Positions 6,238 to 60,437 of a stretch of 64,000 bases of DNA are shown here, one piece after another. Numbering within the stretch: position 1 is the stretch's first letter; each line of letters begins with the position of its first letter. The position numbers and the translations under genes were made by a program. The notes under the pieces were generated by a model. The model was not told where the DNA came from, searched no databases, and worked only from the letters and a program-made list of their open reading frames with translations. Origin of the DNA: Globodera rostochiensis (taxonomy: Eukaryota > Nematoda > Chromadorea > Rhabditida > Heteroderidae); contig JAEVLN010000007.1 of the NCBI GenBank assembly GCA_018350325.1, forward strand, positions 2,533,856-2,597,855. Reading direction: 5' to 3'.

Positions 6238-6351
6238 GGTTACTAAATCCTTTGGCTATAGACATATTTTTGAAACAACTATATAAAAAAAGGCCGGCTA
6301 CACTCTTGGGGATGCGAACACCACCCTAGAGTGTAGCCAGGATTAGTAACC
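6238..6351. other. Nested hairpin downstream of the Helitron gene
   Basis: An 11-bp perfect stem (GGCTACACTCT at 6296-6306 with its complement at 6328-6338) is enclosed by an imperfect outer pair (6238-6250 with 6340-6351, GGTTACTAAATCC/GGATTAGTAACC). It sits past the 3' end of the transposase gene, where Helitrons carry a terminator hairpin. It is absent from copies B and C, which lack this stretch, so its role is unproven. Confidence 0.5.
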
Positions 6352-6532: not shown

Positions 6533-7409
6533 TTATTTGCCAGTCAACTGAATAAGCTTGTATACCAAGACAATTGTCTCAAAGTGGTTAAGCCCATTGT
6601 ACCACAGCACAATCGGGTTGGTCACTTGGCGTTGGAATTGCTGGCCCGCCCCGTTGTCACAGATCAGGGTGAACTGCTGCAGGTCTTCGAGCGGCATGTT
6701 GGTTTGACTTCGCTGCAAAAGTACGAGGTAAGATGTGAAGTTTGAAACTGACTATACCCGAGCTATTCCGTCAGGGAAATAGACGTCAATTATTTGCGGG
6801 TATTGTTTGCTATCATTCCATTGCGCTGCATGTGCTTGCAATTGGTCGCGTGTTGCGTTGGGGTGGACAATCGCAACAGTACGGCGGAGCAGAATTGCGA
6901 CCATATATGCATCGTCCAGTTGAGCCCATCCGCCATTTTTGCGGAATGGCATTGCAATGTAGTTGGCGTATGCCTCCAGGTTTTGGTCGAACCATTGCGG
7001 AGCCTCAACGTCCAGAAGTGCAAGTTGGAGATGTTCCAGGAATGCATTGTGGCTCGCATACTGCAGCCTGGGGAAGTAGTTGGCGTTTTGAAGAATCAAA
7101 GTAAGTTGTCTTGAAACGGCAACGCGGAGGAGGTCGGAGATCGCTTCACTGTCTGAGCCAAACAACGAAATGGTGATTGCGCTTAAAGAAGCAAGCATTG
7201 TTTGCGTAAAACATCCATATTCTTCACCGGTAGAAGCAGTCGCCTAGTCCAACGTTGTTGACGCAGCGGACGGCGTTTTGTTGCTGGGCAGAAGTGGATG
7301 GATAGCAGAGCGGCATATTGCAGTCTGAGGCAATTGGCAAGGAATTGCGTTGAGTGGTTTGGCTGCTACGAGGCGTAGAGGTCCGTGATCCAACAATTTG
7401 TCGTTGTGT
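6533..7409 (-). other. OTU-type cysteine protease domain of the Helitron protein
   Basis: Exons: 7228-7409, 6758-7181, 6533-6712. NNVGLGDCFYR joined across an intron to AITISLFGS gives the Asp-x-Cys active-site loop. GGWAQLDDAYMVAILLRR is the central OTU segment, and IVLWYNGLNHFETIVL supplies the catalytic histidine near the C-terminus. OTU proteases usually remove ubiquitin; OTU domains are known in some Helentron/Helitron2 proteins. Copy A stops early after the histidine. Confidence 0.8.
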
Positions 7410-10400
7410 CTGTGGAATAAACGTTTGACACCTGTATGTTATTTGGTGCTTACTTTGTTCACAAGCTCTTTGTAAAGCAAATAGTCTTCGTTGGCGAACA
7501 TGACAAAATGAATTTCTGGAACTTCGGCAGCGCGTTCCAGGTCTTCTGCCAGCCAATTAAGAACAGATTCGAAAGCCAAATTCGCGGCGGTAGCACGGGA
7601 AAAGCCTTTGGCGCCAGTAGAGATGCACGGGAATGCCTCAAGTATTTTAACATTTAAAATCGTTTAGCGGACGTTTCATACAATGGTCCTAGGTTGAGGC
7701 CGTTCAGGTGGTATTTCGGTCGCAAGCAGGTGATCCAAAGCGTTTGAATAACAGTTCTTCAAAGCTGTTATGTCGTCAGTCGTTGGCGTTGAACCCAAGA
7801 CGACGGGAGCGACAGCGTGAGCAATGTCTTCAATTGGGATTTAACTGGACACCAATTTCTGTGTTATTACATTCGATGTGGTCACGCAAATCGCCGTATG
7901 CAGGAGTCACGACGACTGTGCCAGCAGGTAGTGCCCCATTGAACGCCTCCAGATGGTCTTGGAGTTCCAAGCGTAGCAGCGTAAGTTCAAAGCTGCATGC
8001 TCGGTGGATTGCGTCGTCTACACCACCGCCTTTTTCCAGTATGTTGTTAGCAGCGTTTACAATCATGAAGGCGTGCTGGTTTGTTATGTCGCCTTTCACA
8101 ACGACGAGTTTGCGCAGCAAATCCCTTGTCACTGCTTGGGCCAGGTTGAGAGTGACAGGCGATGCTGAAGACTGTCGAGATGTACGTGTTGCCGGTGTGG
8201 ACAAAGAGGGGGATGGTCTTGTTGTGTGTTCGTGGTTGATGGTAGGTTCGTTTTCCGCTGGAGGCTGGTGTGGAAACTAAACCGTTCTTGCGTAATAAAA
8301 GTACATTCTGTAGTTTATACAGGGTCGTCGGCAATTGTAGTGTCTGCTGGAGTTGGCGGTTCATGGTCAACGGGGTCAAGCAGGTCAGTCATGACGATAT
8401 TTTTGACGAGGCGATCTGGTCGTTTGGTGCAGACTTTGATGTTTTCTGCTTGGCGCACTCGAGAAAGAGCCACGTACAATTGACCGTGCGAGAAGCACTG
8501 TGACTGGTCGAGGAGTATGCCAACATGGCTTAGTGTTTGACCTGAACAACTTGGGGTTTATTAGCAAAACAGACACTCGTACCCTGCGCCTTGTTGATTG
8601 TCATAACACTGCCTGGGCGAAGAGGGAACTGGATGCGCTCGCATCGCAGTAAACCTTCATGGGGCGCCCTTGGGTCACCGCCGAACATAAAGCGAGCAAC
8701 ATGGAGGTCGTGGGCGTTGCCTCGGTGTGTTCCGGTCAAAATTCGGCAGCGTATGATGTGCGTGAACAGTTCCACTACTTGAACTCGCGTCCCATTGCAC
8801 AAGCCTTCTTCCAGCGAAATATTCGTGATAATCATCATCACGGCTCCAACTTTGACGCGAAGATGGTGTTCGGGAAGACCTGGCGGCGTAAGTCTCGATA
8901 AATTTTCATAGTTGACGTCCGCCGCATTGTTTTGGAGACCAACATCAACAGTTGTTTCGTCGCTGACAGGTGTGGTAAAGCCAGTGTACAGTCTCTCGCG
9001 TGTCGGCAATCGGTCCTACAACAAATAATTGTATTGACAATAATAATTCCTGAGGACCATAATGATGTTGTTTAGCTCCAGCGTCTCTCGGTTAAGTGGA
9101 CACAAAATGGCTCTGCCTTCCAGTTCAGCCCAATGCGCGATTGGATCTTTGAGAATTTCAGGTGGGAACACAAAGTTGATCAATGCGTCTCGGTCAGGTT
9201 CAACCTAAATTCACGTTGCTTTTAGTAGGGAAGGTTGTATGCTGTGACCATGCATGCTGGCAGTTTTATGCGTAGGTTTGCATTGTTTAGCAAGCCGGAG
9301 CCGACGCGCATCAAGAAGTTGCGGTAATGCCCCTGCCCAGCTTGAAGACGATGATTGGCAGTTAGACGAATTGTTGTGAAGTGTTTGAACAGGGTAGAGC
9401 TCTTTACCGAGGCATTTTTTTGATCAAGATGGCCGCCTCCAGGGATTACTGGTGCGAGTTGTTTCCAATCGCCACCAAGAACAACGACCTTTAATAAAAT
9501 GTGCTTAAAATTTAAACACAGGGATTTAACCTTTCCAGCAAAAGGAATGTTTGCCAGCCGTTTAGGTGCGACTGAACGAAGGAGGCGGTCCACATATTCC
9601 AATACGTCGCGGTGTTGCATCGATATTTCATCAATGATCATGCCATGGATGCTTCGCAACATGTGGGCAAAGTTGCTTTCGTAGTCGACATTCAGCGCAG
9701 TTGAAGAGTCCACGTGCTTGGCACGACAAAGCCGCTTGTGGACAGTTTGGCCTTCGTAGAGCAGGTCCGCAGCAATTCCGGTTGTTGCCATTGGAAGGAA
9801 ATTAAGCCCTGAGGCTTTTGCTCGAGCGATAATTTTCTACAAATACAGGATTGGGGAAGCCATCAAATTGAACCCCTACATTGTAACTGAAGGTCTTTCC
9901 AGCACCGCCTTCGCCTGTGACCATGAAGAGTCGGGAAAGGCCAGGCGTGAATGATGCTTGTTGACCACTGATGACTTGCTGAGCGTCCACACAACCTTTG
10001 TAAACGTCTTCGATGAGTTGATGTTGCTCGGTGTTCGGCTGCGGATCTTCAAAATATTTGATGCGATAGTAGTCTTCGACGCGTTGGCGACAGTCGAGCT
10101 GATCGGGCAAGAGTTCGGGGTCGATATTGTCAATGATGACATTGTTGCGGAAAAACGTTAGCTAAAACTTGTGTACCAAAGGCCAATCTGTTTCTGTATG
10201 CACCTGTATTAGTTGATCCGCTGTCATGTGAATGCCTTCCGGTCGTGGCAGTCCAATGTGTTCGCATGCTGTCTCGTAAGTACCATCTTCTCTGCATTCG
10301 GTGTCCGGGCGAATACCATTAGCAAGCAAGAACCATTCAAGCGCGCGCAGGACATATTGCAGTTGTTGTTCAGGCGGTGCTTTGCCAACTTTGGTGCTCA

Positions 10401-13400
10401 CAAGCCACTTGTTGGCGTCCTTCATTATTTCTTCCAAAAGCGCAGCTCCGTTGGTCAAGTTTGCGGTGGCGAGGAACACAGCTAGCCAACGTATCCGTTG
10501 TTTTATCGATTTTTTGGTGTTGAAGGCTTCTTTGATTGTGTTCAGCCAAATGGTCATGTCGGACATTAGATTGCGCGCACGGGCGGCATCCACAAACGTC
10601 GGAAAGATGGTGCCGTCAACCGTTCGGAGGTGAACCCAGCTGGTTGGGTCTTGGACGTGGAGCAACAGTTGGCGTATTGCCCTAAAATCCCAAGCTTCTT
10701 CTTTCTAAGAGCGTGTGTGTACAGTACCAAAAGTTCAAGATTTGATGGCGAGACTGTCTTTAAGCGGCAAAGTTTGTGGCCAGCGCGATTTTCCTGCACG
10801 TACAGCTTCCACTCCTTTTTCGCCGCATCGTACCAGAGTTTTTTGAATGCCGTTGCATAGGTCAAATGCAGCGCATCGTCCTGACATTGTTCGTTGAATG
10901 CAAAATAAGCAGTCAGCTGTGTGACACGTTCTTCGCCAGCGTTGCGTCGTTCTTCTTCTGCCTGAGCTGCTTCACAAAAGGCATTCCGCTGCTCTTCCTC
11001 ATCTTCAAATCCTTGTTGCACTGCGATCCGGTGGCCTTGTGGTCCATGGACGTCCAATTCATCGACCTTATTAGGGTGAAAGATTGCTATATTGCCTGAC
11101 GAGCGCTTACTTGATGGGATCTTCGTATGAGAGGTGTTCCCAGCTGTTGAAGATAAGCTTCCATTGAGGAAATGTATCGGGCAAGGCGAATTTGATGCAT
11201 TTCGTCGTAGTTGAGGGCACTTTGGCCGGTGTTGCCATCCGTGACTTGGACGAAAGCCATGTCAGCTCCTTTCATCATGTACTTGCATAAGTACTTAATG
11301 CAACCATCTCCTGCGACGAACTCGACGTTGATGCTGCAAAGATTACAGAAATTTTGTCAAAAAATATGAATCTTACTGAGCGACATATTTGCTCGACAGG
11401 AATGGGCTGAAAGCCACGACGTGCGAGTTGTCCTTTCGAATAGTTTTGCCTCGCTGGTCCTTGTATTGTATTTCGCGCCCATACAGTTCGGGATTCATCT
11501 GTGCTTCCTGAAGAGATGGCGGAGGTGGACGGCGCCTGTAGCGAGGGTAGGCGTTTTCGGAGTGCACATTGTCGTACTCAAACGGTTTCTACAGGGAATT
11601 AACTGTAGGTCAGATTGAAGTATAACTCTAATGCACCGGAAAGTGTTTCCTGCACTTGCCATCCTGCAGACAATGCTTTGTTGAACATGTGTGGATGTTC
11701 TTTGTTGTGATCGTTTTGTGTAAGGCACGTTGTTGCGCCGCTTCTTTGGTCCGCCCCGTCGGATTTGGCGGGATTTCAGCACAGATGTACTCATCTATGT
11801 AGTCTGCGGGCGTTTGGATTTTGCCCATATTGCGCATTCGGTCCCAATCCAAAATAATGGCAGTGTGTACATGCGGCAAACCACTGTAAGCATTTAGCAC
11901 TACTTAGCTTGTTCCACTTAAGTGTTTACCGAAATTGATGTTCCAATGCGCCAAACCAAGCACGAACGGGACCGAGAACGCCGCGTTCGGTGAGGTCTTT
12001 GTACAGTTCTTGGAGTTTGTCCACGAAGAGCCTGCACACAAGATCTGGGCGGTCAAACCACTGCTGTTGTTTTCCTCCCGCATCAGTGCCCAGCATAGCT
12101 TGAAGCTCTGGACAATCCGGGCTCATCGTAAACGTGACCAGAAGGTCGGGAGGTCCAAATTCGCGGCAGATGGTCATGCAGTTGGCATACTCACGCTGGT
12201 AGAACTGCCTTGACCCGCGGAAGTGCTCATCGGTCATGTACACCCGACCAATGGGGCCTTGCAAGCCTTAAACTCCGATATGTTTGCTTAAAGAATGTTT
12301 TAGTTATGCCTTGTTTATTTCTGAGAGCTTCGAGCCAGTTGATCAAAGAGTTTGGTAGTACAAGACGACGTTGGCCTTGTTTGCGCTTCATGTACTGGAC
12401 TTTTTGTGCCTCCGCTCTGTTGTTGAATGTCAACGTGTACAGTTGAGCAATGGTGCCCCAGTCCCAGAGCCAGTGAGGGTTGCGCCAGTTTGCGCCACGT
12501 ATTTGCGACATGTAGCGGAACCATTGTGCAAACGATACTTTGTCTCGTCGATTGTAAACGCGTTCATTTGTTGGCCCAAGAAACTCAGCCTCTTCTCCAA
12601 GTTCATCGGTTTCGGGAACAACATTTTGTTGGGCGTCCCTGAGCAACAGGTGTGAATCGACGTGTTCGCCTTCGCGGAGGCGTAGGGGTAGCCCACGCTC
12701 TATATATTGGTTTACAGGTTGACCATTGCATTTACTTTTACCGAATCCGCATTGGCCTCGACTGAACAACAGTGGAAACAGAGCTGGATCGATGTTCCTG
12801 TTAGACCACTTCATGTGTCTTTTGCCGCTTCCAAAACGTCCAGTCAACACAACGTCGTAGGGATTTGAGGGCACAACGTTCGAGCCATCGTCCAGGTAAA
12901 ACTTGAAAAAAGGAAATGAGGAAACAGCTGGCGTTATAAGAGCACCTGGGCCACAAGACGGCTACCGTCAACAGTTTGAACGCCGAGTCTGCCTGGGTGA
13001 ATTTGCTGCACATTTTGAAGATCAGCAGGTGCAATAATTGGAGCAGGACGAACAACATCGTCCGAAAAGACTCGCTCTTCCCCATGGGGCGTTGAGTCAA
13101 CCAAAAGCATGCGAAGGTTGACTTGTTCCTGCTGGGGAAGTTGTCGGAACGTTTCAGCTGCAGTCTGATACAAATCGGCGTAAGGGTGGTAGCGCCGCAA
13201 AACGTCGAACAAAAATTGCATAAGTTCCGGCTATAATAATTGGTCGGTAATGGGTAATAATTCTGAACAAACTGAAAGGTTGTGATCAGTCGAAATTTCC
13301 GATAGCCGTGTTTGCGCGTCAACCGGTGGGATGGTGAAAAGTTGGCCATGCAATGCGGGCAAAGATGACGAAGGCGGATTGAAATCCCAAACAGCAAACT

Positions 13401-16400
13401 GCATCATGTTGTTGCATTTGATGATGCGCTTGTCGTAGGCGCGCTTGTCCGTGCTGAGTTGAAGCTGGATTTGGCCGAAGGACAAGTGGCTATTGTAAGC
13501 CAGAGCATTTTTGAACAGGGCGTCGCGCATTCGGACAATGCCAGTGTCGTGGTTGTAGAGCAAGGCCATCAGTTCACCAGGGCGATTTTGAAGGTCGTTG
13601 AAACGGAACAGCAGATCAACGCGGCCCTTAGCGCAACATTTGGAAAAGGCGGTTGGTCCAGTGCCTTCAGAGTGCAAGCACAACGCGCCACAGAATGGGC
13701 AGGTACACGGTTCCTGTTTTGGGCAAATTTAAAAAACAGCTTATGTTATTGTTGGTACCGCAAGGGAGTCGTAATACACCGGAAGGTGTTTTGCAGAGCA
13801 GGCACCGCATCCAACGCCAAAATGTTTGGAATGTGGAGTTGCGCATTGATTCGTTATTGGCTCGAAGACTTCATGCTGGGACGACCACATTTCCGAACTG
13901 AAGCGAGAAGTTGATCGGCTTTCTCGTTGGCTGCGCCTTGGTGCCAAAGATGGTGGAGGCATGAGAACTGAGTCCAATGTCGACTGGCTGAACATCCCAG
14001 AAACTGCCGAAGAGGGAGGAATTCGTTGGTTAGGGCGGACTGCTCGGCCGCCAAAGCATCCCCGGGGCTTTGCAATCCGCCGTTGTTGAGCAGGCTCTTT
14101 GACGTCGCATGCGGGGCTATATATAAAGGGATGTTAAGATAATTTGTCTCTTCTAGTCACATGTAATTGATGTCTTGAACGCCCTTCCACGGGCTACCAC
14201 ATAAGCGGGGGCAGCTCTGTCTTGGTTCGGGTTCGTACCTTAGTAATAAAACACTGGTTTTGGTGGAGTTAATTGGCCTAATGAATACCAGCAGTGGTGG
14301 TGGCAATAAGTCGAACAGCAAGGCAGGAAAACTTTGTCAGGTGGAAATCCATCATCGGTCAAACAAAACAGTTTTTTGCAAAGGTTGCAAAATCCAGGGT
14401 GCGGGGCAGAACATTGCAAACACAGGCCACCATTTGAACAAAGTCTGAGCAAATTTTGGGAATTTAAGATTTAAAGTTAAGCCATGTACTTTTCCTCAAG
14501 CTCATCCGCATGCAAATCCTTGGCACAGAGGGCTTCGGAGCAATAGCAGCTGGTTTCAAAGCAACCAATGCCCAACTTTTGCTTGCATTGGAAACATTGC
14601 ATTGAAGGTGTGGCTTTTGAGCATTTTTTTCCAACCTTGCAATTTTTAATTGCGTCGTTTGAAAGCCTAAAAATAGAAGAAGTAAAGGTATTTGGTACTT
14701 AAAATAGCACCATTCTTTAAAAGCCTTTTCCCAATGAAATTTGTGGCCGCATTCAAAAGAACCATAGCCCTGCATTGGGTCCACAGGAAGGTGACAAAAA
14801 ACGCATCTCATTTGTTTTGCAAAACGGCCAGTCGCCCCTCTTGGTGTTGCACATAATTCTTTTTGCAACCCTGGATTGGATTATATTAGCAGTATCTTAT
14901 ATATTGTACAGACCACTTGTTTCAATGCCGAGATCGTGCAACATGTCTTGCTGGCCTGGTCCGATAAAGTCTGAGACTGCTGTCACATCTTCATAGACCT
15001 GTGCCTCATTTACTTCTGGCTGGAGAGCATCATGTTGTATAATATTTAGGTCGAAAGACTCTTCTGAAAATACAGAATGAGCAACTCAAACATAAAAGAC
15101 ACAAAAATTTGAAAAAATCAAGTACCAGAAAGTATGCGTAATTTCTCAAGCGGGAGATCTGGATCAGCAGAAGTTGATTGCAGCGAATCTGTGTTAGACA
15201 TTTCGCGCTGTTTGGCAGTTCGTTTGTTGGCAAAACGATGGGTGGAGCGTGAGGAAACAGGAGTTGACATGATGTCGCAAGAGTCTGATGATAAACTTGT
15301 TACACAAATACAAGAAAGCTCAATGTATACTTCCACGCGTTCTGTAGACGAAATCACCCATCGAAAACTGCTCCCACCATCTTGAATAAGCTCTGCGACT
15401 GACAACAGCGGTTCCAAACAATGTTGTAAGGGCGGCAAACGCGATTGGCCGATTCTCTTTTGAGTGAAAGCGCGAAAGAAGAAAATCATGTTGATTCTGT
15501 GCACTGCTGTCTTCTGGGGTCGCACCTCCGCGCAGTTTGTATGAGTTTGTGCAAAACTGGAGTGTTGAGTCGTCATTATAAAGCCATTTCTTGTAGCATA
15601 TGTCCCGGACAAGCTGCAGCAAGAGCCGCGTGGATGTTTTGTCTCCGTTTTGAATATGCGACAGCAACATGTCGCGTCGGACTAAATCGGCTGGCCAGCA
15701 TCGATGCTAAAGAACGTGTTCATAAAAAACTTGGATTATAGTCTTTATACCAAAACTGGGTGATGAAATATATCCATCTTCATTGGAAAAGGCACAAGAA
15801 GAATTCGCCGATTCTTGGGTTTGGACACGTTCAATGTTCGGCTACAAGTCTTTCCCGGCTTCTCAACGCTCAGGTAAAACATGTCGCGATAGACGACATC
15901 AGCAGGCGATGAACTCGGCTATTAATAGGTATATACAAATAAGCATGCTGCTTGGCACATATTCTACCGGGAACGGTTGATTGAAAACAACCATTTGTGT
16001 TACAGCTCCAGTAACAGGCAGATGGTTGAAAACAGATTTTTTGAGAAGTTTGGCTTCTGTTGACACAATCGAGTATGGCAAGGCGGAAACATGTCGTGGG
16101 GGCATGATATTCGTGTTGCGTAAAGGTGGAGATTGAGTCTCTTCTACTCTTGAGATTGGTTTAGGCTTCTTCTTTGGCTTAAGGGAAACGTTTAATGTCA
16201 GTTGGAATTGCAAAGGACGGACTCGGCGGCGGACAGTCAGAGTGTCCCAAACAGTCCGGAGGGTCGGAGTTGGAGTCGGCGGACAAGGCGAAACCAACGA
16301 AAGCGTTCGACGAGCCGGCACAGTTTTGCGGGTGATGACTTGCCACTCATGGTGTATAAGCGGCTTAACACGCCTATCATGACAATTCATTGGTTTGTCA

Positions 16401-17277
16401 GGGGGCAAAACTGCCGAGTTTCTGGCCGCAATTGGGGCATAGCCAACGGGCTTTGCTTCCTTTGTCTTCGGAATTGCCTAAGGAATAGCGAACAGCATTT
16501 TGAAGATAGAAATTTTAGTGTACCTTTTTCTCATTGGCATAATTGCGCAAAAAAATTTTGGCGCCACGGGTTTCGACGTGGTACGCCAGTTTATCCAGGC
16601 CACTGACGATAACATCGGGGCGCTGTTCCGGAACCGTTTTGGTGTTGGCAGCGATTGGCGCGTAGCCAACGGGGTGCGTGGTATTGCTATAATTTATTTA
16701 ATGGGTTTGTGGTTGTATTGTATAAATAAATGTGCAAAAAAATCGTACATGATGGGCTTTCGTTTTTCGAGCCATTTTTCGAAGGCCACTGGATCCTTCG
16801 CTGGCAATTCAATGCCCGCCCACGCATCCCCCTCCGTCCAACCATTGCGGGTGGCAGCCGGGATGGCGATGCCCTGGCCACGCTGGTGCATGGCTTCGCG
16901 GTCAGCTTCCCACTTGTAGACAAAGATGTCGCGCACCAAGTTGCGCAAGTGGGAGACATGGGTCTTGTTGCCCTTAGCGATCATGCCGAGCAAATCGTTG
17001 GCGCGATTGCAGTCGGCGCGCCAGTTGCGTCCCTATTTGGTATAAAACTCGCTGTACGCATTTGATGCTGATTATTAACATATTAATAAATAATTAAAAG
17101 GGCAGTCGATTTGCTTATTTGATAGTAAATAATTAAAATAAGTAGTAATAAATGTTATATAATTACAGGGATGGCCTTGTTGAAAACGGACAACTTTATG
17201 TCCGATGGCAGACAAGAAGGGATCGCTGTGGTCAGCGATGGTCGACGCTCCGGGGAGCAGTACATAAGACGCGGCAT
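6533..17277 (-). CDS. Helitron polyprotein: HTH/zinc N-terminus, Rep, PIF1-type helicase, macro, OTU
   Basis: One minus-strand gene reconstructed as 34 exons (coordinates under the five domain entries below). All junctions keep frame; 32 introns are GT-AG and one (12267-12309) is GC-AG; most are 40-65 nt. The summed exons give about 3,057 codons including stop. Rep nicks and joins DNA by HUH/tyrosine chemistry and the helicase unwinds it, the rolling-circle transposition machinery of Helitrons. The added macro (ADP-ribose-binding) and OTU (deubiquitinase-type) domains suggest interplay with host modification systems, an inference. The stop at 6533-6535 comes about 30 codons earlier than in copies B and C, which read on through the same position. 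The ATG at 17277 is the best visible start; a start farther upstream, or a separate gene for the first five exons, cannot be excluded. Confidence 0.75.
7454..8276 (-). other. Macro domain of the Helitron protein
   Basis: Exons: 7871-8276, 7682-7827, 7454-7636. Clear macro-fold signatures are visible: VVKGDITNQHAFMIVNAANN followed by GGGVDDAIHRA, and after two introns AFPCISTGAKGF, matching the two nucleotide-binding loops. Macro domains bind or hydrolyse ADP-ribose adducts. The domain is in frame between helicase and OTU. In copies B and C it is kept in part: the exon equivalent to 7454-7636 lacks about 105 bp. Confidence 0.8.
8321..10681 (-). other. PIF1-type superfamily 1 helicase region of the Helitron protein
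   Basis: Exons: 10204-10681, 9880-10161, 9531-9836, 9249-9488, 9058-9204, 8583-9015, 8321-8541. The motifs appear in the expected order: Walker A GEGGAGKTFSYN, Ia MATTGIAA, Walker B IIDEISM, III VVLGGDWKQLAPV, IV RLTANHR, then MTINKAQG joined across an intron to QTLSH, and LYVALSRVR (motif VI). An in-frame TAG near 10162 is removed if the 48-nt intron 10162-10203… is spliced, as frame and signals suggest. The function is 5'-3' DNA unwinding during rolling-circle transposition. Confidence 0.85.
10723..13713 (-). other. Rep (HUH endonuclease) region of the Helitron protein
   Basis: Exons: 13273-13713, 12946-13230, 12310-12901, 11930-12266, 11637-11883, 11377-11588, 11111-11333, 10723-11066. 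It starts with CPFCGALCLHSEG (zinc finger) and then a Helitron-like N domain (SFAQWFRYM; YANCMTICREFGPPDLLVTF). Next come the HUH motif GLPHVHTAIIL (exon 11637-11883) and the tyrosine motif KYLCKYMMKG (exon 11111-11333). These are the metal-binding histidines and the catalytic tyrosines of rolling-circle Rep proteins. The intron 12267-12309 uses a GC donor. No premature stop is seen in copy A. Confidence 0.85.
13759..17277 (-). other. N-terminal region of the Helitron protein (HTH_48-like, Cys/His clusters)
   Basis: Exons: 17167-17277, 16749-17032, 16524-16686, 15968-16477, 15751-15918, 15331-15706, 15126-15284, 14914-15063, 14699-14870, 14490-14666, 14289-14444, 14161-14238, 13759-14116. The first exons give an unrecognised sequence in which PVGYAPIAA occurs twice. 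Exon 15331-15706 has a Mos1-type helix-turn-helix pattern (AFAALTTLFGTAVVSRRAYS, then RWWEQF and MGDF). Exons 14699-14870 and 14490-14666 carry CVFC…CGHKFHW and CFQCKQ, a RING/FYVE-like Cys/His array; 14289-14444 adds CLQC, CNLC and CHHHCW. The last exon ends CGACSAKHLP, a zinc finger typical just before Helitron Rep domains. Sequence from about 15,530 leftward recurs in copies D-F with changes that often keep the amino acid, supporting that it is coding. The five upstream exons occur only in copy A. Confidence 0.6.
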
Positions 17278-23680: not shown

Positions 23681-23684
23681 GTTA

Positions 23685-26600
23685 ACTTTGAGCCAAAATT
23701 TTGTTTTTGAAAAATGCTCTACTGTATACTTGATTTATTATTATAACGTTTATTTGTAACGCTCTATACATTTTTGAGACTTTTAGTTTCCTTATTCATT
23801 TGGCAGAATAAGTACTCACACCTTGCACCACGTGAAGGTAGTCTCTTTAGCGAAGCACCCCCCCCCCTCCCTCCTTTTCTTAAATTTAAGACACAATTTG
23901 TAAATTGTTGTTAGCGCCTTCGCAAGTATTGTATATGTCTTTGCATTGTTTTTAGCAACAAATGTAAATGATATATTGCAAGCAAATTTAAACACTTTAA
24001 CAAAGAAACATTCGAATAAGTTTATATCAAACAAACAAAAAAAGGCAGGTTACTAAATCCTTTGGCTATAGACATATTTTTGAAACAACTATATAAAAAA
24101 AGACCGGCTTGAAGACACTTCCTTCAGAAGCTTGTGGCCGCTTGGTGGCTTAACATATTTTAATTTATCAGTCAGCTGAATAAGCTCGTATACCAAGACA
24201 ATGGTCTCAAAATGGTTGAGCCCATTATACCAGAGCACAATTGGGTTGGACACTTGGCGTTGGAATTGCTGGCCCAATCCGTTGTCACAGATGAGGTTGA
24301 ACTGCTGCAGGTCTTCGAGCGGCATGTTGTTTTGAGCTCGCTGCAAAAGATAGAGCTACTTTGTGAAGAAGTATACTGAGCATACCCGAGCTATTCCATC
24401 AGGAAAGTAGACGTCAATGATTTGCGGGTATTGGTTGCTGTCATTCCATTGCGCTCCGTGTGCTTGTAACTGGTCACGTGTTGCGTTGGGGTGGACAATG
24501 GCAACAGGACGGCGGAGCAGAATTGCGACCATATAAGCATCGTCCAATTGAGCCCATCCACCATTTTTGCGGAATGGCATTGCAATGTAGTTTGCGCATG
24601 CCTCCAGGTTTTGGTCGAACCACTGCAGACGCTCAATGTCCAGGAGTGCAAGTTGCAGATGTTCCAGGAATGCGTTGTGGGTCGCATACTGCTGCCTGGG
24701 GAAGTATTTGGCGTTTTGAAGAATCGAGGAAAGTTGACGTGAAGTGGCAACGCGGAGCAGGTCGGAGATCACTTCGCTATCAGAGCCAAACAACGAAATG
24801 ACGATTGCGCTTAAATAAGCATTGTTTTGCGTAAAATATCATTGGTCTTCACCGGTAGAAGCAGTCGCCTAGTCCAACGTTGTTGGCGCAGCGGACGGTG
24901 TTTTGATGCTGGACAGAAGCGGATGGAGAGCAGAGTGCTATATTGCAGTCTGAGGCAATTGGCAAGAAATTGCGTTGAGTGGTTTGGCTGCTACGAGGTA
25001 AAGCAAATAGTCTTCGTTGGCGAACATGACGAAATAAATTTCTGGCACTTTGTCAGCGCGCTCAAGGTCTTCTGCCAGCCAGTTTAAGACTGCTTCAAAA
25101 GCCAAATTTGCGGCGGCAGCGCGAGGAAAACCTTTGGCTCCGGTAGAGATGCACGGGAATGCCTCAAGTATTTATAACATTTTAAAGGCCGTTTATTGCA
25201 CGTTTCATACGATGGTCCTAGGCTGCGGACGTTCTGATGGGATTTCGGTAGCCAGCAGATGGTCCAACGCGTTTGAATAACAGTTCTTCAAAGCTGCTAT
25301 GTCGTCAGTCGTTGGTGATGAGCCCAAGGCGACAGGAGCGACAGCGTGAGCAATGTCTTCAATAGAATATTAGTGTGGACACAACATTGCGTCTTTACAT
25401 TCGATGTGGTCACGCAAATCGCCGTAAGCAGGTGTCACGACGACTGTGCCAGCAGGTAGTGCTCCATTGAACGTCTCCAGATGGTCTTGGAGTTCCAAGC
25501 GTAGCAGCGTAAGTTCAAAGCTGCATGCTCGGTGGATTGCGTCGTCTACACCACCGCCTTTTTCCAGTATGTTGTTAGCCGCGTTCACAATCATGAAGGC
25601 GTGTTGGTTTGTTATGTCGCCTTTCACGACGACGAGTTTGCGCAGCAAATCCCTTGTCACTCCTTGGGCCAGGTTGAGAGTGACAGGCGATGCCGAAGAC
25701 TGTCGAGATGTACGTGTTGTTGGTGTGGACAAAGAGGGCGATGGTCTTGTTGTGTGTTCGTGGTTCATGGGCAGTTCGTTTTCCGCTGGTGGCTGGTGTG
25801 GAAACTAAACCGCTCTTGCACAACAAAAGAACTTTATGTAGTTTATACAGGGTCGTCGGCAACTGTAGTGTCTGATGCAGTTGGTGGTTCATGGTCAACC
25901 GGGTCCAGGAGGTCTGTCATGACGATGTTTTTGACGAGGCGATCTGGTCGTTTGGTGCAGACTTTGATGTTTTCTGCTTGGCGCACTCGAGAAAGGGCCA
26001 CGTACAATTGACCGTGCGAGAAGCACTGTGACTGGTCGAGGAGGATGCCAACATGGCTTAGCGTTTGACCTGAACGACTTGGGGGTTATCAGCAAAACAG
26101 ACATTCGTACCCTGTGCCTTGTTGATTGTCATAACACTGCCTGGGCGAAGGGGAAATTGGATGCGTTCGCATCGCAGCAAACCCTCATGAGGCGCCCTTG
26201 GATCACCGCCGAACAAAAAGCGAGCAACATGAAGGTCGTGGGTGTTGCCTCGGTGTGTCCCGGTCAAGATTCGGCAGCGAATAATGTGCGTGAACAGTTC
26301 CACTATTTGGACGCGCGTCCCATTGCACAGGCCCTCTTCCAGCGAAATGTTCGTGATAATCATCATCACGGCTCCAACTTTGACGCGAAGATGGTGTTCG
26401 GGAAGACCTGGCGGCGTAAGTCTCGATAAATTTTCATAGTTGACGTCTGCTGCATTGTTTTGGAGACCAACATCAACAGTTGTTTCGTCGCTGACAGGTG
26501 TGGTAAAGCCAGTGTACAGTCTCTCACGTGTCGGCAATCGGTCCTACAACAAAAAATGTGTATTGACGATAATAATTCCTTAGGACCATAATGATGTTGT

Positions 26601-28249
26601 TCAACTCCAGCGTCTCTCGGTTGAGTGGACACAAAATGGCTCTGCCTTCCAGTTCAGCCCAATGTGCAATTGGATCTTTGAGAATTTCCGGTGAGGAAAA
26701 CAAAGTTGATCAACGCGTCTCGGTCCGGTTCAACCTAAATTCTCTGATTGCTTTAGAGGGAAGGCTGTATGCAGTAACCATGCATGCTGGCAGTTTTATG
26801 CGTAGGTTTGCGTTGTTCAGCAAGCCGGAGCCGACGCGCATCAAGAAGTTGCGATAGTGCCCCTGGCCAGCTTGGAGACGGTGGTTTGCAGTAAGGCGTA
26901 TTGTCTTGAAGTGTTTGAACAGGGAAGAGCTCTTTACCGAGGCATTTTTTTGATCAAGATGGCCGCCTCCAGGGATGACTGGTGCGAGTTGTTTCCAATC
27001 GCCACCAAGAACAACAACCTTTAATAAAATGTGCTTGAATATCTAAACATTGTTACAAGGATTTTAACCTTTCCAGCAAATGGAATATTCTCGAGCCGTT
27101 TCGGTGCGACTGAACGGAGGAGGCGGTCGACGTACTCCAACACATCACGATGTTGCATCGATATTTCATCGATAATCATGCCATGAATGCTGCGCAACAT
27201 GTGAGCGAAGTTGCTCTCGTAGTCGACATTCAGCGCAGTTGAAGAGTCGACGTGTTTGGCGCGACAAAGCCGCTTGTGGACAGTTTGGCCTTCGTAGAGC
27301 AGGTCCGCAGCAATTCCGGTTGTTGCCATTGGAAGGAAATCCGGGCTCATCGTAAACGTGACCAGAAGGTCGGGAGGTCCAAATTCGCGGCAGATGGTCA
27401 TGCAGTTGGCATACTCACGCTGGTAGAACTGCCTTGACCCGCGGAAGTGCTCATCGGTCATGTACACCCGACCAATGGGGCCTTGCAAGCCTTAAACTCC
27501 GATATGTTTGCTGAGAGATTGTTTTAGGGCTATGCCTTGTTTGTTCCGGAGAGCTTCAAGCCAGTTGATCAAAGAATTTGGCAGCACAAGTCGGCGTTGT
27601 CCTTGTTTGCGCTTCATGTATTGCACTTTTTGGGCTTCCGCTCTGTTGTTGAACGTCAATGTGTACAGCTGAGCAATGGTGCCCCAGTCCCAGAGCCAGT
27701 GAGGATTGCGCCAGTTCGCGCCACGTATCTGCGACATGTAGCGGAACCACTGAGCAAAAGAGACTTTGTCTCGGCGATTGTAGACGCGTTCATTCGTTGG
27801 CCCAAGAAACTCGGCTTCTTCTCCAAGTTCATCTGTTTCCGGAACAATATTTTGTTGGGCATCCCGGAGCAACAGGTGTGAGTCGACGTGTTCGCCTTCG
27901 CGGAGTCGGAGCGCTAGTCCACGTTCTATATATTGGTTAACAGGTTTCTACTATTTTTGGCGTTTACCAAAGCCGCATTGGCCTCGACTGAACAGTAGTG
28001 GGAAAAGTGCTGGGTCGATGTTCCTGTTGGACCACTTCATGTGTCGTTTTCCGCTTCCAAAACGTCCAGTCAGCACAACGTCGTAAGGAGTCGAAGGCAC
28101 AACGTTCGATCCATCGTCCAGGTAAAACTTGAAAAAAGCAATTTCAAAACATCTCGCATTATATATATTACTTGTGCCACAAGACGGCTGCCATCAACAG
28201 TTTGAACACCGAGTCTGCCTGGGTGAATCTGCTGAAATTTTGCAGATCC
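23685..28249 (-). pseudogene. Helitron copy B, internally deleted polyprotein
   Basis: Same exon order as copy A, shortened. The OTU region is at 24089-24890 and keeps the histidine segment and the Cys loop. The macro domain is at about 25000-25770, helicase motifs Ia to VI at about 25860-27340, and Rep N-terminal sequence at 27341-28249. At 27341 the helicase sequence FLPMATTGIAA follows LLVTFTMSPD in frame. This removes about 2.3 kb relative to copy A (about 9799-12117): Walker A, the HUH motif and the catalytic tyrosines. The exon matching 7454-7636 of copy A lacks about 105 bp. The protein cannot be an active Rep-helicase. The copy ends in a BEL LTR fragment at the same target site as in copy C. 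Confidence 0.8.
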
Positions 28250-43580: not shown

Positions 43581-44271
43581 TGTCTCTGACAGAATTGTTA
43601 CACCATTTTTATTCTTTCCTTTTTTGAATAAATCAACAAAAAAGAAGGACCAATCACCCATTTTGCCCGAGGGCATTTTCCCATCCATTCCAAAAAATGG
43701 ACTAATCCCAGCGAGGGCATTTCTCCCCCCTCTTTCCAATGGGGGTCAGTCCGATGATCAACAGCTCCCCTCCCGTTGGTCCCTCCGAAGACGTCCACCC
43801 TTTGATCGACGACCGGCCCGCCGCCAATCACGATGTGCCGAAGGACGCTTTCTCATCGACTCCGACGGATTCCACCCCCCTCTTTTTTGCTGTCATTTTT
43901 TGCCCTCCCCCCGATCAACCCCTTCGATCCGCCCCCAACCATCGATATAAAAACCCCCCCCCCCCTTATGCCGTTCACTCAACCATTTTCTTCGCATTTT
44001 CATATCCGCATTCAATAAAACTTAAAAAGCAGCTCTTTCGAATTTGGTCTACTAGGTCTTCACCGTCGCGACCCTTCGTCAGAACTCCTTGTTTTCCGAC
44101 TCCCCGTTTTCCTTCCTTCCTCGATCTCCGCAGAGATCCCCAACTTGCTCCCCACGTTCAATTCCCTTTTTTCCCATTTTTGGAAATCTGGGCTCCTCTT
44201 TCTCCAACTGCAGAAAAAGGAAAGACTTTGGTTGCCGTTGTTTTACCAGTCGTTCTTGGTGAACTCCGACA
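43581..44271 (+). repeat. BEL/Pao 3' LTR
   Basis: A 691-bp copy of the 5' LTR. TATA box at 43946-43952, AATAAA at 44014-44019. It is followed by the GCAGG target duplication (44272-44276). Confidence 0.95.
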
Positions 44272-44276
44272 GCAGG

Positions 44277-44655
44277 TGCGATAATTGGAGCAGGTCGAAC
44301 AACATCATCCGAAAAGACTCGCTCTTCGCCATGTGGTGTTGAGTCAACAAAAAGCATGCGAAGGTTGACTTGTTCCTGCTGGGGAAGTTGTCGGAACATT
44401 TCAGCTGCAGTCTGATACAAAGCTGCGTAAGGATGGTAGCGCCGTAAAACGTCGAACAAAAATTCCATCAGTTCCGGCTATAATAAATTGGTAGGTAATG
44501 TGTAATAATTCTGAACGAACTGAAAGGTTGTGATCAGTCGAAATTTCTGATAGCCGTGTTTGCGCGTCAGCCGGTGGTATGGTGAAAAGTTGGCCATGCA
44601 ATGCGGGCAAAGATGACGAAGGCGGATTGAAATCCCAGACAGCAAACTGCATCAA
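44277..44655 (-). pseudogene. Helitron copy C, right remnant after the BEL insertion
   Basis: It continues the Rep N-terminal exons broken at 34063: FDVLRRYHPYA… (to about 44468), an intron, then LHGQLFTIPPADAQTRLSEI. At 44655 the sequence jumps from GCATCA into helicase sequence AATTCCGGTTGTTGCC, so the N-terminal zinc-finger exons of copy C are missing. Confidence 0.8.
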
Positions 44656-47600
44656 ATTCCGGTTGTTGCCATTGGAAGGAAATTAAGCCCTGAGGCTTTT
44701 GCTCGTGCGATAATTTTCGATAAATATAGGACTGGGAAAGCCTTCAAATTGAAACCCCTACATTGTAGCTGAACGTCTTTCCAGCGCCACCTTCGCCTGT
44801 GACCATGAAGAGTCGGGAAACACCCGGCGTGAAGGATGTTTGTTGGCCACTGATAACTTGCTGCGCGTCAACACATCCTTTGTAAACGTCCTCGATCAGT
44901 TGTTGTTGTTCGGTATTCGGCTGCGGATCTTCAAAATATTTGATGCGATAATAGTCTTCGACGCGTTGGCGACAGTCGAGCTGATCGGGCAAGAGTTCGG
45001 GGTCGATATTGTCAATGATGACATTGTTGCGGAAAAACGTTAGCTAAAACTTGTGTACCAAAGACCAATCTGTTTCGGCATGCACCTGTATTAGTTGATC
45101 CGCTGTCATGTGAACGCCTTCCGGTCGTGGCAATCCAATGTGTTCACATGCCGTCTCGTAAGTGCCATCTTCCCTGCATTCGGTGTCCGGACGAATACCG
45201 TTTGCAAGCAAGAACCATTCAAGCGCGCGCAGGACATATTGCAGTTGTTGTTCAGGCGGTGCTTTGCCAACTTTGGTGCTCACAAGCCATTTGTTGGCGT
45301 CCTTCATTATTTCTTCCAAAAGCGCAGCTCCGTTTGTCAAATTTGCGGTGGCGAGGAACACGGCAAGCCAACGCAAACGCTGTTTTATCGATTTTTTGGT
45401 GTTGAAGGCTTCTTTGATTGTGTTCAGCCAAATGGTCATGTCGGACATGAGATTGCGCGCACGGGCGGCATCCACAAACGTCGGAAAGATGGTGGTGTCA
45501 ACCGTTCGGAGGTGAATCCAGCTGGTCGGGTCTTGGACGTGGAGCAACAGTTGGCGTATTGCCTTAAAATCCCAAGCTTGTTATTGCTAAGAGCATGTTT
45601 CCACTCCTTTTTCGCCGCATCGTACCAGAGTTTTTTGAATGCCGTTGCATAGGTCAAATGCAGCGCATCGTCCTGACATTGTTCGTTGAATGCAAAGTAA
45701 GCAGTCAGCTGTGTGACACGTTCTTCGCCAGCGTTGCGTCGTTCTTCTTCTGCCTGAGCTGCTTCACAAAAGGCATTCCGCTGCTCTTCCTCATCTTCAA
45801 ATCCTTGTTGCACTGCGATCCGGTGGCCTTGTGGTCCATGGACGTCCAATTCATCGACCTTATTGGGGTGACAGATTGCTATATAGCCTGACGAGCGCTT
45901 ACTTGATGGGATCTTCGTATGAGAGGTGTTCCCAGCTGTTGAAGATAAGCTTCCATTGAGGAAATGTATCGGGCAAGGCGAATTTGATGCATTTCGTCGT
46001 AGTTGAGGGCACTTTGGCCGGTGTTGCCATCCGTGACTTGGACGAAAGCCATGTCAGCTCCTTTCATCATATACTTGCATAAGTACTTAATGCAACCATC
46101 TCCTGCGACGAACTCGACGTTAATGCTGCAAAGAAACAGCAATTTTGTCAAAAAAATATGAATCATACTGAGCGACATATTTGCTCGACAGGAATGGGCT
46201 GAAAGCCACGACGTGCGAGTTGTCCTTTCGAATAGTTTTGCCTCGCTGGTCCTTGTATTGTATTTCGCGCCCATACAGTTCGGGATTCTGCTGCGCTTCC
46301 TGGATTGAAGGCGGAGGTGGACGGCGCTTGTAACGAGGGTAGGCGTTCTCGGAGTGCACATTGTCGTACTCAAACGGTTTCTACAGGGAAATAACTGTAG
46401 GTCAGATTGAATTATGACTCTATTGCACCGGAAAGTGTTTCCTGCACTTGCCATCCTGCAGACAATGCTTTGTTGAACATGTGTGGATGTTCTTTGTGGT
46501 GATCGTTTTGTGTAGAGCACGTTGCTGCGCCGCTTCTTTGGTCCGCCCCGTCGGATTTGGTGGGATTTCAGCACAGATGTACTCATCTATGTAGTCTGCG
46601 GGCGTTTGGATTTTGCCCATATTGCGCATTCGGTCCCAATCCAAAATAATGGCAGTGTGTACATGCGGCAAACCACTGTAAGGATTCAGCACTACTTCAA
46701 CTTCTACACACTTAAATGTTTACCGAAACTGATGTTCTAATGCACCAAACCAAGCACGAACAGGACCGAGAACGCCGCGTTCGGTGAGGTCTTTGTACAG
46801 TTCTTGGAGTTTGTCCACGAAGAGCCTGCACACAAGATCTGGGCGGTCAAACCACTGCTGTTGTTTTCCTCCCGCATCAGTGCCCAGCATAGCTTGAAGC
46901 TCTGGACAATCCGGGCTCATCGTAAACGTGACCAGAAGGTCGGGAGGTCCAAATTCGCGGCAGATGGTCATGCAGTTGGCATACTCACGCTGGTAGAACT
47001 GCCTTGACCCGCGGAAGTGCTCATCGGTCATGTACACCCGACCAATGGGGCCTTGCAAGCCTTAAACTCCGATATGTTTGCTTAGAGATTTTTCAGTTAT
47101 GCCTTGTTTGTTCCGCAGAGCTTCAAGCCAGTTGATCAAAGAATTTGGCAGCACAAGTCGGCGTTGTCCTTGCTTGCGCTTCATGTATTGGACTTTTTGG
47201 GCTTCCGCTCTGTTGTTGAACGTCAACGTGTACAGCTGAGCAATGGTGCCCCAGTCCCAAAGCCAGTGAGGGTTGCGCCAGTTTGCGCCACGTATCTGCG
47301 ACATGTACCGGAACCACTGTGCAAAAGAGACTTTATCTCGGCGATTGTAGACGCGTTCATTCGTTGGGCCAAGAAACTCGGCTTCTTCTCCAAGTTCATC
47401 AGTTTCCGGGACAACATTTTGTTGGGCATCCCGTAGCAACAGGTGTGAGTCGACGTGTTCGCCTTCGCGGAGGCGGAGCGCTAGTCCACGTTCTATGTTT
47501 GCTAGGTTGACCATTGCGTTTAGTTTTACCAAAGCCGCATTGGCCTCGACTGAACAACAGTGGAAACAGAGCTGGATCGATGTTCCTGTTGGACCATTTC

Positions 47601-50220
47601 ATGTGTCTTTTGCCGCTTCCAAAACGTCCAGTGAGCACAACGTCGTAGGGGTTTGATGGCACAACATTCGAGCCATCGTCCAGGTAAAACTTGAAAAAAG
47701 CAATTTGAAAAACATCTCGCGTTATATATTACTTGTGCCACAAGACGGCTACCATCAACAGTTTGAACGCCGAGCCTTCCTGGATGAATCTGTTGAACAT
47801 TTTGCAGATCCGCAGGTGCAATGATTGGAGCAGGGCGAACAACATCATCCGAAAAGACTCGCTCTTCGCCATGTGGTGTTGAGTCAACCAAAAGCATGCG
47901 AAGGTTGACTTGTTCCTGCTGGGGAAGTTGTCGGAACGTTTCAGCTGCAGTCTGATACAAATCGGCGTAAGGATGGTAGCGCCGTAAAACGTCGAACAAA
48001 AATTGCATCAGTTCCGGCTATAATAAATTGGTAGGTAATGTGTAATAATTCTGAACGAACTGAAAGGTTGTGATCAGTCGAAATTTCCGATAGCCGTGTT
48101 TGCGCGTCAACCGGTGGGATGGTGAAAAGTTGGCCATGCAATGCGGGCAAAGCTGACGAAGGCGGATTGAAATCCCAAACAGCAAACTGCATCATGTTGT
48201 TGCATTTGATGATGCGTTTGTCGTAGGCGCGCTTGTCATTACTGAGTTGAAGTTGGATCTGGCCGAAAGACAGGTGGCTATTGTAAGCCAGCGCATTCTT
48301 GAACAGTGAGTCGCGCATTCGGACAATGGCGGTGTCCTGGTTGTACAACAGGGCCATGAGTTCACCAGGGCGCTTTTGAAGATCATTGAAACGGGTCAGA
48401 AGATCAACTCGACCCTTCGCGCAACATTTAGAAAAGGCTGTTGGTCCAATGCCTTCAGAGCGCAGGCACAAGGCACCGCAGAATGGGCATGTACAGGTTT
48501 CCTTTTTAAGGGAAACTTAAAAACAGCTTTGTTGAAGTTGATACCGCAAGAGAGTCGTAGTAGCCCGGAAGATGTTTTGCAGAGCAAGCACCGCATCCAA
48601 CGCCAAAATGTTTTGAATGTGGAGTGCCGCATTGATTTGTTATTAGTTCGAAGACTTCTTGCTGAGAGGACCACACGTCCGAACTGAAGCGAGAAGTTGA
48701 TCGGCTTTCTCGTTGGCTGCGCCTTGGTGCCAAAGATGGTGGAGGCATGAGCACTGAGTCCAAGGTTGACTGGCTGAACATGCCAGAAAGAGCCGAAGAT
48801 GGGCGCGTTCGTTGTTCGGGGCGTACAGCTCTGCCACCAAAGCATCCACGCGCCTTAGCGATCTGCCTTTGCTGAGCCGGTTCAATGACATGGCATGCGG
48901 GACTATATAAGAAGTTTTTCAATATATTTTATTTTATCAATCATAATCACATGTAATCAATGTCTTGTACGCCTTTCCACGGGCTACCACATGAGCGGGG
49001 ACACGTCTGGTTTGGTTCGGGCTCGTACCTTAGGAATAGAGCAATTGTTTTGTATGGTGTAACCTATAAATACCAGCAGTTCTGGTGACAATAAGTCAAA
49101 CAGCAAGGCAAGAAAACTTTAGTAGGCGGAAGTCCTTCATCGGTCAAAGAAAAAAGCATGTTGCAGATGTTGCAAAAGCCAGGATGGGGAGTGGAGCATT
49201 GTAAACACAGCCCACCATTTGAACAAAGTCTAAGAAATGTTTGGGTGTCTCATGTTTAATGTTAACAGATTTACTTTTCCTCAAGCTCATCCGCATGCAA
49301 GTCCGTGGCACGGAGGGTTTCCGAGCAGTAACAACCGGTCTCAAAATAACCAACGCCAAGCTGTTGTTTGCATTGCGGACACCTCATTGAAGGTCGCGAC
49401 TTTGGACATTTGGTTCCGTGCTTACAGCGTTTAGTCGCCTCATTAGATAGCCTAAAACTTGAAGCAATTAATGTGGGTCCCCTGGGTTATTGCCAGTACC
49501 ATTCTTTAAATTGCGTTTCCCAATGATATTTGTGCCCGCATTCAAATGATCCATAGCCTTGCATTGAATCAACAGGAAAGGAACAAAAAACGCATGACAT
49601 TGACTTGGCAAAACGACCACGCGCTGCTCTTGGTTTTGGACAACATTCTTTTTGCAACTCTGGATTGGTGTTTATTAAAAGCTAATATATAGAGTACTCA
49701 CCACAAGGTTCAATGCCAAGGTCGTGCAACATTTCTTGTTGTCCCGGCCCGATGAAGTCGGAAGCTGCTGTTACATTTTCATAGGCTTGTAACTCGCTCG
49801 CAGCAGACGGGAGAGTATCTTCATGCAAGGTGTTCAGGCCAATACCATGGTCTACCGTTGCTGAGTGATCAACTCAAACACAAAGTCATAAAAGGGTGAA
49901 TAAGTTTAGAGTACCAGATAGAATGCGCAATTTCTCTATCGGGAGCTCGTCATCTTCTGATTGATCTGCGCAAGCAGAAGGTCCTAAGAAAAAAGGCGGC
50001 TTAAGTAAAAATGCATCAATGTGTACTTCCACGTTTTCTGAAGACGGAATCAAAACTGTTCCCACCAGCGGGAATATGCTTGACGACTGACAACAACGGG
50101 GCCGAAATGAGTTGTAAGCGCTTCAAATGCTGTTTGCCGATTCTGGGCTGAGTTAAAACATGCAAGAAGAAAAGCATGTTGACTCTGTGCTGTGCTGTGT
50201 TCAGGTGTGCCACCTCCGCG
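44656..50220 (-). pseudogene. Helitron copy D: start of helicase, Rep and N-terminal region only
   Basis: It matches copy A from about 9772 to about 15,530. Walker A GEGGAGKTFSYN is at about 44750-44830, pre-helicase exon at 45085-45547, Rep C-terminal exon at 45590-45866, catalytic tyrosine and HUH exons at 45911-46692, Helitron N domain at 46720-47662, zinc-finger exons at 47750-48900, and upstream Cys/His and helix-turn-helix exons at 48962-50220. Helicase motifs Ia-VI, macro and OTU are absent. About 105 bp spanning an exon end and its splice donor is lost near 45595. The helix-turn-helix exon has an 8-nt deletion giving a stop after WWEQF. Rep motifs themselves are intact. Confidence 0.8.
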
Positions 50221-59784: not shown

Positions 59785-60437
59785 GCTACCACAACTGTCC
59801 ATCCCTAGCAAGATCGCTTGAAGCATTGGTTAGAAGAAATCGCGCTTCTGTTTTGCTGTCCAGGCGACACAAAACAGTTCAACCACGCGCAACCCACTGG
59901 TTAGTAAGCTAGGCGCTGCTAACAAAGTGGTGAACGACAAAAAACGAGTATTCCCCAGGAGGGAAGAAAGTCCACTTGGTGTGGTTCATTCTACAAAATC
60001 GGAGTCGGATTTGAATCGCGATGACAGACGCGATCATGCAGCAGCTGACTCAAGTTCTTCAGCAAATGTTGACGAACCAACAGCAAAATGTTCCACCCAT
60101 TGCATCGGTTCAACCGCTACCATCGCTTCCAAACGTTGAATGCTTTGAGCCAGCCGAAGACAGAAGTATTGCCGACTGGCTAGAACGCTTCAATTTCGCG
60201 CTCGATTGTGCCGCACCGCAATTGGCTGATGACAAAAAGGTCAAACTGCTAATGACAAAGCTGAGCGAAGCCGCCTTCGGGCAGTACAGCAAATCGTGCT
60301 TGCCGAAAAAAGTGACGGAGTTCACCTTCGCAAAGACCGAAGAGCATCTCAAGGCTGCATTCGGCAGGCCTCAATCAATTTGGATTGACCGATATGAATG
60401 CCTTCGCGCATCGCGAAACGAAGACGAGAATTTCCGT
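59785..60437 (+). pseudogene. Ty3/gypsy gag fragment, copy 3
   Basis: The same gag start (60021) and same cut at GAATTTCCGT (60437) as in the copy at 50221-50873, joined to the same Helitron base. The identical junction shows it descends from one rearrangement. Confidence 0.85.

Follow-up and report, generated by a model that had tools for sequence, protein, structure and literature searches.

The question raised by a 64,000-nucleotide stretch of the genome of the cyst nematode Globodera rostochiensis (here the window; positions 2533856-2597855 of contig C67 in a 92.6-Mb assembly of 80 contigs, which was also the genome searched) is whether a Helitron can encode, within the very protein that carries its Rep nuclease and helicase, a macro domain followed by an OTU domain. 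A first-pass annotation had described positions 6533-17277 as such a gene, in one chain of 34 exons and about 3,056 residues; a continuous minus-strand chain is indeed present, but it consists of 35 exons and encodes 3,037 residues. The sequence shows the domain order within one open chain, a recurrence of that order in proteins of Globodera and Heterodera, purifying selection and intact motifs. On this basis we read the gene as a cyst-nematode Helitron Rep-helicase (RepHel) made as one large protein, whose MacroD and C-terminal OTU tail probably, though by no means certainly, strips host marks during transposition. The predicted gene and its parts are as follows.

6533..17277, minus strand: whole predicted gene, 35 exons, 3,037 residues, ATG at 17277, stop codon ending at 6533
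15751..17277, minus strand: exons 1-5 (residues 1-412), N-terminal extension, with residues 96-385 48% identical to part of G. pallida P0097
15331..15706, minus strand: exon 6 (residues 413-537), with an HTH_48-like stretch VSRRAYSRWWEQF at 15403-15365, under the Pfam cut-off
14161..14870, minus strand: exons 9-12 (residues 640-829), Cys/His-rich zinc-like array, its pattern kept in L024 and P0093
13273..13713, minus strand: exon 14, Helitron N-terminal zinc-like motif CTCPFC...CCAKG (CTCPFC at 13707-13690)
11111..12699, minus strand: exons 17-21, Helitron_like_N (residues 1304-1494) and HUH Rep motifs
8321..10161, minus strand: exons 24-29, PIF1-like helicase (residues 2061-2235) and Pif1_2B
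7454..8276, minus strand: exons 30-32, MacroD-type macro domain, by motifs, profile and fold
6533..7409, minus strand: exons 33-35, OTU-like domain, by family profile and Cys and His motifs

The final model contains no internal stop in its 3,037 codons; 33 of its 34 introns are GT-AG and one is GC-AG, 31 of the 34 are 40-50 nt long, and its exons have a GC content of 0.507 versus 0.325 in introns. A homology-free coding score reached 496.7 on the minus strand (9,216 coding nt), against 55.9 on the plus strand and 7.6-12.9 for three shuffles, a control that is partly circular and not fully independent, since the codon table was trained on eight long open reading frames of the same minus strand. 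The model was fixed by hand, exons 6-8 by means of P0093 and P0097 and the GC-AG intron from the reading of L024, a copy on another contig, and the reading frame of the exons following exon 6 is concordant with P0097 and P0093. Two automatic models (36 exons, 2,979 residues; 34 exons, 2,970 residues) were dropped, both having misread exons 6-8 through a false intron across the helix-turn-helix-like stretch; a free-ended gene prediction overran the gene at both ends and was not used. The 5' end of the model is weakened by residues 1-37 (in exon 1), for which relatives contain no collinear match; residues 2-78 resemble (34%) only a later, repeat-like stretch of P0097, and residues 54-117 and 96-385 are matched by the G. 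pallida proteins P0083, P0092 and P0097. An Rfam scan of the window gave no match.

Along the final model the order is zinc-like motif, Rep, helicase, macro and then OTU, the OTU on the strength of its family profile and motifs. Scores above the Pfam cut-offs were obtained for Helitron_like_N (111.1 bits, cut-off 28.9), PIF1 (134.6), Pif1_2B (49.1) and Macro (74.3); among the families named in the first-pass annotation, Helitron_like_N, PIF1 and Macro are thus recovered in the order it had given, whereas OTU and HTH_48 stay below theirs. The Rep part contains GLPHVHTA (11882-11859, residue 1488) and the two-tyrosine sequence YLCKYMMKG (11293-11267, residue 1654), which we take to be the HUH and catalytic-tyrosine motifs, and the helicase extends from the Walker A motif GEGGAGKT (9915-9892) to the last motif VALSRV (8473-8456), which gives the product both protein hallmarks of a Helitron RepHel, a two-tyrosine HUH Rep and a PIF1-like helicase after it. 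The CTCPFC-type motif of exon 14 is also present in L024 and, in the form CPHC, in P0079. Fold searches and motifs assign the macro domain as MacroD-like; it carries GDIT, NAAN (8057-8046), GGGVDDAIHRAC (8030-7995) and ISTGAKGF (7624-7601), of which NAAN, GGGVD and the ISTG loop are presumably the catalytic motifs. Further upstream, a proposed Mos1-like helix-turn-helix was not borne out at the curated threshold: searched piecewise, HTH_48 reached 17.1 and 14.8 bits (cut-off 24.1), and a search of the whole model did not list it at E up to 1. The RING-like character proposed for the N-terminal arrays found no Pfam RING match at E up to 5, nor on the whole model, but the Cys/His pattern as such is kept in L024 (48% identical). 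For Exo_endo_phos, a search of the spliced product with E up to 1 gave nothing.

The C-terminal OTU domain of the first-pass annotation stands by its family profile and motifs, but not by Pfam in the window copy. Its Cys motif is GLGDCFYR (residues 2830-2837) and its His motif LWYNGLNHFE (6607-6578, His at residue 3021); the Cys column is invariant in 10 of 10 aligned rows and the His in all nine rows reaching it. Compared with the PDB, the OTU family profile (A5) gave a best match at 4.3e-4, and 37 of 37 matches were to OTU-family chains; HHalign to Helentron OTUs gave 94.9%. A phmmer search of the OTU region against the PDB provided no support for OTU, and Foldseek with a predicted model of the OTU exons returned nothing at E <= 0.001. 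The predicted structure of P0001 (907 residues; UniRef A0A914H714) was poor overall (mean predicted local distance difference test, pLDDT, 57) and better over the macro domain; macro domains took up the results of its fold searches, which are thus uninformative on the OTU.

Homologues from two genera, with predicted products that run across the junctions, support a single Helitron gene ending in macro and OTU. The final model gave single alignments over residues 986-3037 with G. pallida P0077 (77%), 791-3027 with G. rostochiensis P0084 (53%), 833-3027 with H. schachtii P0086 (51%) and 978-3020 with G. pallida P0083 (51%), and a single stretch of alignment (residues 404-2917 of the first window model, 50.5%) connects that model with the one of L024. 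The alignments with P0077 and P0086 span the helicase-macro-OTU junctions. Because the protein searches were confined to a length range and scored only about 8,000 candidates, those with most words in common, their counts are not a census; among the 55 matches listed for the Rep-helicase part alone, eight have a precomputed Macro domain, and all eight are from Globodera or Heterodera. NAAN and GGGVDDAIHRAC are retained in the window gene, P0077, P0086, P0087 and P0078, and the ISTG loop in the first four, P0078 having IATG. Altered macro motifs occur in L024 (GAGVDD and IAIG) and L025 (RGGVGD), the macro match of P0084 is sub-threshold (18.9 bits), and P0083 and P0091 are without NAAN and GGGVDDAIHRAC-type motifs, with the OTU region still present. 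Two G. pallida proteins of more distant relationship, P0092 and P0094, gave no macro match; the former has a weak OTU match (15.5 bits) and a sub-threshold C-terminal RING, the latter a C-terminal RING over cut-off. As a separate observation, RING_2 exceeds its cut-off in the long C-terminal tails of P0078, P0091, P0094 and P0095, and P0078 and P0091 combine a ubiquitin-ligase-type RING module with an OTU within one predicted protein.

The window also contains truncated copies of the gene, with which its coding sequence can be compared, and a hairpin beyond its 3' end.

24164..28234, minus strand: copy c2, a 3' half comprising helicase, macro and OTU, deleted from Rep to helicase and corresponding to P0001
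29983..34063, minus strand: copy c3, another 3' half, sharing the c2 deletion and in tandem with c2 (94% over 5.85 kb)
44271..50220, minus strand: copy c4, a 5' half with zinc array and Rep, lacking any macro/OTU match
50875..55603, minus strand: copy c5, a further 5' half, in tandem duplication with c4 (97% over 5.4 kb)
59063..63975, minus strand: copy c6, 5' half fragments, c4/c5 duplicate, near the window edge
6296..6338, no strand assigned: 15-nt hairpin 3' of the gene, within ~181 bp unmatched in c2 and c3

Ratios of nonsynonymous to synonymous substitution (dN/dS; Nei-Gojobori, window gene versus truncated copies, in groups built on the exons of the first automatic model) were 0.125 and 0.198 for the macro domain against c2 and c3 (237 codons each) and 0.273 and 0.327 for the OTU (246 codons each), with no stop codon in either domain. 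The zinc/Rep and helicase parts gave 0.014-0.069 (seven groups of at least 237 codons), the N-terminal part 0.206 (two groups, 212 codons, one wrong exon included) and the c5 helicase group 0.43 (110 codons, 5 differences); some groups hold one or two frameshift-length gaps, among them the macro domain of c3. As judged from these comparisons, purifying selection acts on the tail as well as on Rep and helicase.

By tblastn, several pieces of G. rostochiensis P0001 are identical (100%) to c2, an exon identity that fits G. rostochiensis as the source of the DNA. Local amplification has produced 5.4-kb tandem blocks of Helitron 5' halves (44271-63975, 95-100% identical) and a tandem pair of ~5.8-kb 3' halves within 22955-34588 (94% identical), and satellite-like tandem arrays with units of 139 bp and 159 bp lie at 20098-20527 and 21767-22319, in an AT-rich stretch between Helitron copies. 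Of the Helitron end signature (TC and CTRR ends, terminal hairpin, A-T insertion with no duplication of the target), only the hairpin at 6296-6338 was seen, and it is a mere candidate for the element end because the ~181 bp around it are unmatched in c2 and c3; as the window copies are tandem duplicates, they offer no empty site for comparison. In the genome, 49 tail matches were grouped manually into 13 loci on six contigs. Helitron_like_N lies within 10 kb upstream of the tail at seven of the 13, and helicase sequence adjoins the tail on C3 (L025) and C41 (L039). In a check covering the loci other than the one on C29, neither helicase nor Rep was found beside the tail matches at three loci on C44 (L026 over 7 kb; L037 and L038 over 3.4-3.6 kb).

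Some of these tails seem to be genes of their own. L026 (C44:61800-68800) matches G. rostochiensis P0004 in three tblastn pieces (60, 62 and 78 residues) at 100%, and both L026 and L038 (C44:68600-72200) have a possible start, MKIFGFLAFCLVGTLFAG, which is signal-peptide-like and in frame with the macro domain; the UniRef record of P0004 starts 25 residues farther upstream and omits part of the macro domain. By hydropathy, G. pallida P0003 has a related signal-peptide-like start. The tail tree kept 14 of 18 rows (P0085, P0092, P0095 and P0005 were dropped as partial), with P0083 and P0091 as a long-branch pair and gene-prediction gaps in the rows of P0004, c2 and c3. It unites P0003 with P0004 (100/99) and makes the Helitron pair L024/P0084 their sister (100/99), while the H. 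schachtii Helitron P0086 falls outside this group (96/95). By eye, L026 and the window gene have five intron places in common (after NVQ/HIE, QTI/RTI, LIES/LVNK, DCFYR and FPDG plus three); the macro motif of L026 is altered (VTDAN, GDGIND), its OTU motifs are retained. These relationships are most simply explained by a Helitron tail having turned into a gene of its own before the split between G. rostochiensis and G. pallida, and the macro-OTU genes may represent exaptation into a secreted protein family of Globodera. There is precedent, reported in PMC9741609, for transposon-borne deubiquitinases having turned into nematode and insect genes. If the reading is correct, this would be a traceable case of a transposon tail turning into a separate nematode gene.

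What could such a tail do for a transposon? HUH nucleases join covalently to DNA, and cells mark such joints by attaching ADP-ribose, ubiquitin and SUMO and clear them by proteolysis. In the mechanism we propose, the HUH tyrosines would form a covalent protein-DNA joint during transposition, which host repair would tag with ADP-ribose and ubiquitin; the macro-OTU tail would then remove both marks in place, and this would shield the complex from removal or degradation and prolong the intermediate, so that strand transfer could be completed. A variant with Ulp1 would erase the sister mark, SUMO. Mark removal by the window protein would fit its intact MacroD and OTU motifs as well as the Helitron-borne proteases for which PMC9741609 reports measured deubiquitinase activity. 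Against the OTU assignment itself, Pfam OTU has no match in the spliced product of the window copy, and relatives reach at most 22.4 bits against a cut-off of 23.3. The core of the first-pass observation holds, partly confirmed, and its interpretation, of one Helitron gene with an unfamiliar domain combination that could reverse host marks on the transposition complex, is partly supported. Should the prediction for the tail be right, one and the same transposon protein would cut DNA and erase two host marks, which would make it a testable claim that host signalling of DNA-protein crosslinks restrains rolling-circle transposition; natural macro-protease fusions are also possible tools.

The same data have to be weighed against other explanations. 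That gene finding joined neighbours, i.e. a RepHel gene and a separate macro-OTU gene or more, seems very improbable to us: free-standing macro-OTU genes with signal-peptide-like starts do exist (P0003, P0004, L026, L038), but helicase, macro and OTU occur in one product in P0077 (G. pallida), P0086 (H. schachtii) and P0078 (H. trifolii), themselves predictions with a sub-threshold OTU in each, the helicase-macro linker peptide DPFPHQPPAENE is recognisable in P0078 and P0087 of H. trifolii and P0085 of G. pallida, and introns of 41-46 nt from exon 21 onward connect the parts in frame. A gene joined in this way apart, macro and OTU might be captured passengers, of a kind that Helitrons often take up, with no role in transposition. 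Gene capture by these elements is discussed in PMC4067079, the OTU dN/dS is several-fold above that of Rep, and macro motifs have been lost in some relatives. We nevertheless regard passengers as improbable, given dN/dS values well below 1 for both domains, uninterrupted by stop codons, and a tail spread over four clades of its tree, with both Globodera and Heterodera rows in two of them (one of these a long-branch pair).

An unlikely explanation, if somewhat less so, is that the locus is a tandemly amplified gene family maintained by the host and no longer a transposon; the window copies do lie in local tandem blocks of 94-99% identity over kilobases, five of the six are halves, and neither termini nor empty sites were found at them, but relatives of the tail are spread over six contigs, and the HUH and tyrosine motifs of Rep are intact in strongly constrained sequence. 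More far-reaching, and possible though doubtful, is the idea that Helitrons joined a macro domain to a ubiquitin-family protease more than once (OTU in cyst nematodes, Ulp1 in Aphelenchoides, perhaps USP in P0081) as an eraser of ADP-ribose plus ubiquitin or SUMO on the Rep-DNA joint, and that in Globodera exaptation of the tail later gave rise to a family with signal peptides, probably secreted and older than the divergence of G. rostochiensis and G. pallida. That P0081 resembles Helitrons only in its helicase makes this idea somewhat less probable. The reading we prefer remains that of one Helitron protein with a mark-stripping tail.

How does this protein compare with known systems? Like canonical Helitron RepHel proteins, it has a zinc-like motif, a two-tyrosine HUH Rep and a PIF1-like helicase. 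Judged from their ends, however, the longest open reading frames in seven other Helitron regions of the same genome (L009-L015) stop at or just past the last helicase motif, though further exons may follow there, whereas the window gene continues with about 550 more residues, i.e. macro and OTU. Its macro domain has the fold and catalytic motifs of MacroD-type ADP-ribosylhydrolases such as YmdB and MACROD1/2, which are small proteins not known to be fused to a transposase. The component domains are already recorded in UniProt and NCBI annotation, without a description of their combination that we could find. In the open-access literature, subscription journals being mostly outside the search, we found no paper on a Helitron with a macro domain or macrodomain and none on a transposon with both macro and OTU domains, in agreement with the first-pass impression that the combination is unfamiliar; among the passages listed by a term search of PMC11118728 and PMC6367775, none concerns Helitron protein domains.

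Other pairings differ in protease or position. In Aphelenchoides avenae P0079 (a partial record), Macro and Ulp1 (Peptidase_C48) are N-terminal, ahead of Helitron_like_N, in contrast to the C-terminal tail with OTU in the window. P0081 combines PIF1, USP (UCH) and Macro; its protease differs from the window OTU, and, having no Helitron_like_N match, it is at most a candidate Helitron. In a macro tree, seven cyst-nematode macro domains form one group (SH-aLRT, an approximate likelihood-ratio support, 100), with P0079 and P0081 elsewhere; this suggests that these two captured their macro domains separately, and no more than suggests it because the tree, short-searched and with 35 of 70 inner branches open, is weak. 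Steinernema P0098 has Ulp1 with a Helitron and no macro match. Two further arrangements may be noted, Steinernema P0127 with Ulp1, a Helitron-type helicase and no macro, and P0080, a gag-pol-like protein in which precomputed Pfam annotation places a macro domain besides reverse transcriptase and integrase domains.

Helentrons offer another comparison. Those with an OTU and an apurinic/apyrimidinic (AP) endonuclease, as described in PMC4067079 and seen in P0128 and P0131, have an OTU-type cysteine protease in common with the window protein. In P0128 and P0131, however, the OTU precedes Rep and an endonuclease-type domain is C-terminal (an Exo_endo_phos match in P0128, just under cut-off in P0131), whereas the window protein has its OTU at the C-terminus, a macro domain and no endonuclease match. 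The main text of PMC9741609, in which the terms macro domain, macrodomain and ADP-ribos are absent, concerns Helentrons with viral-tegument-like deubiquitinases. Their protease class, as presented there, is different from the OTU of the window, but in those Helentrons, too, a deubiquitinase is part of a rolling-circle transposon protein and was later domesticated.
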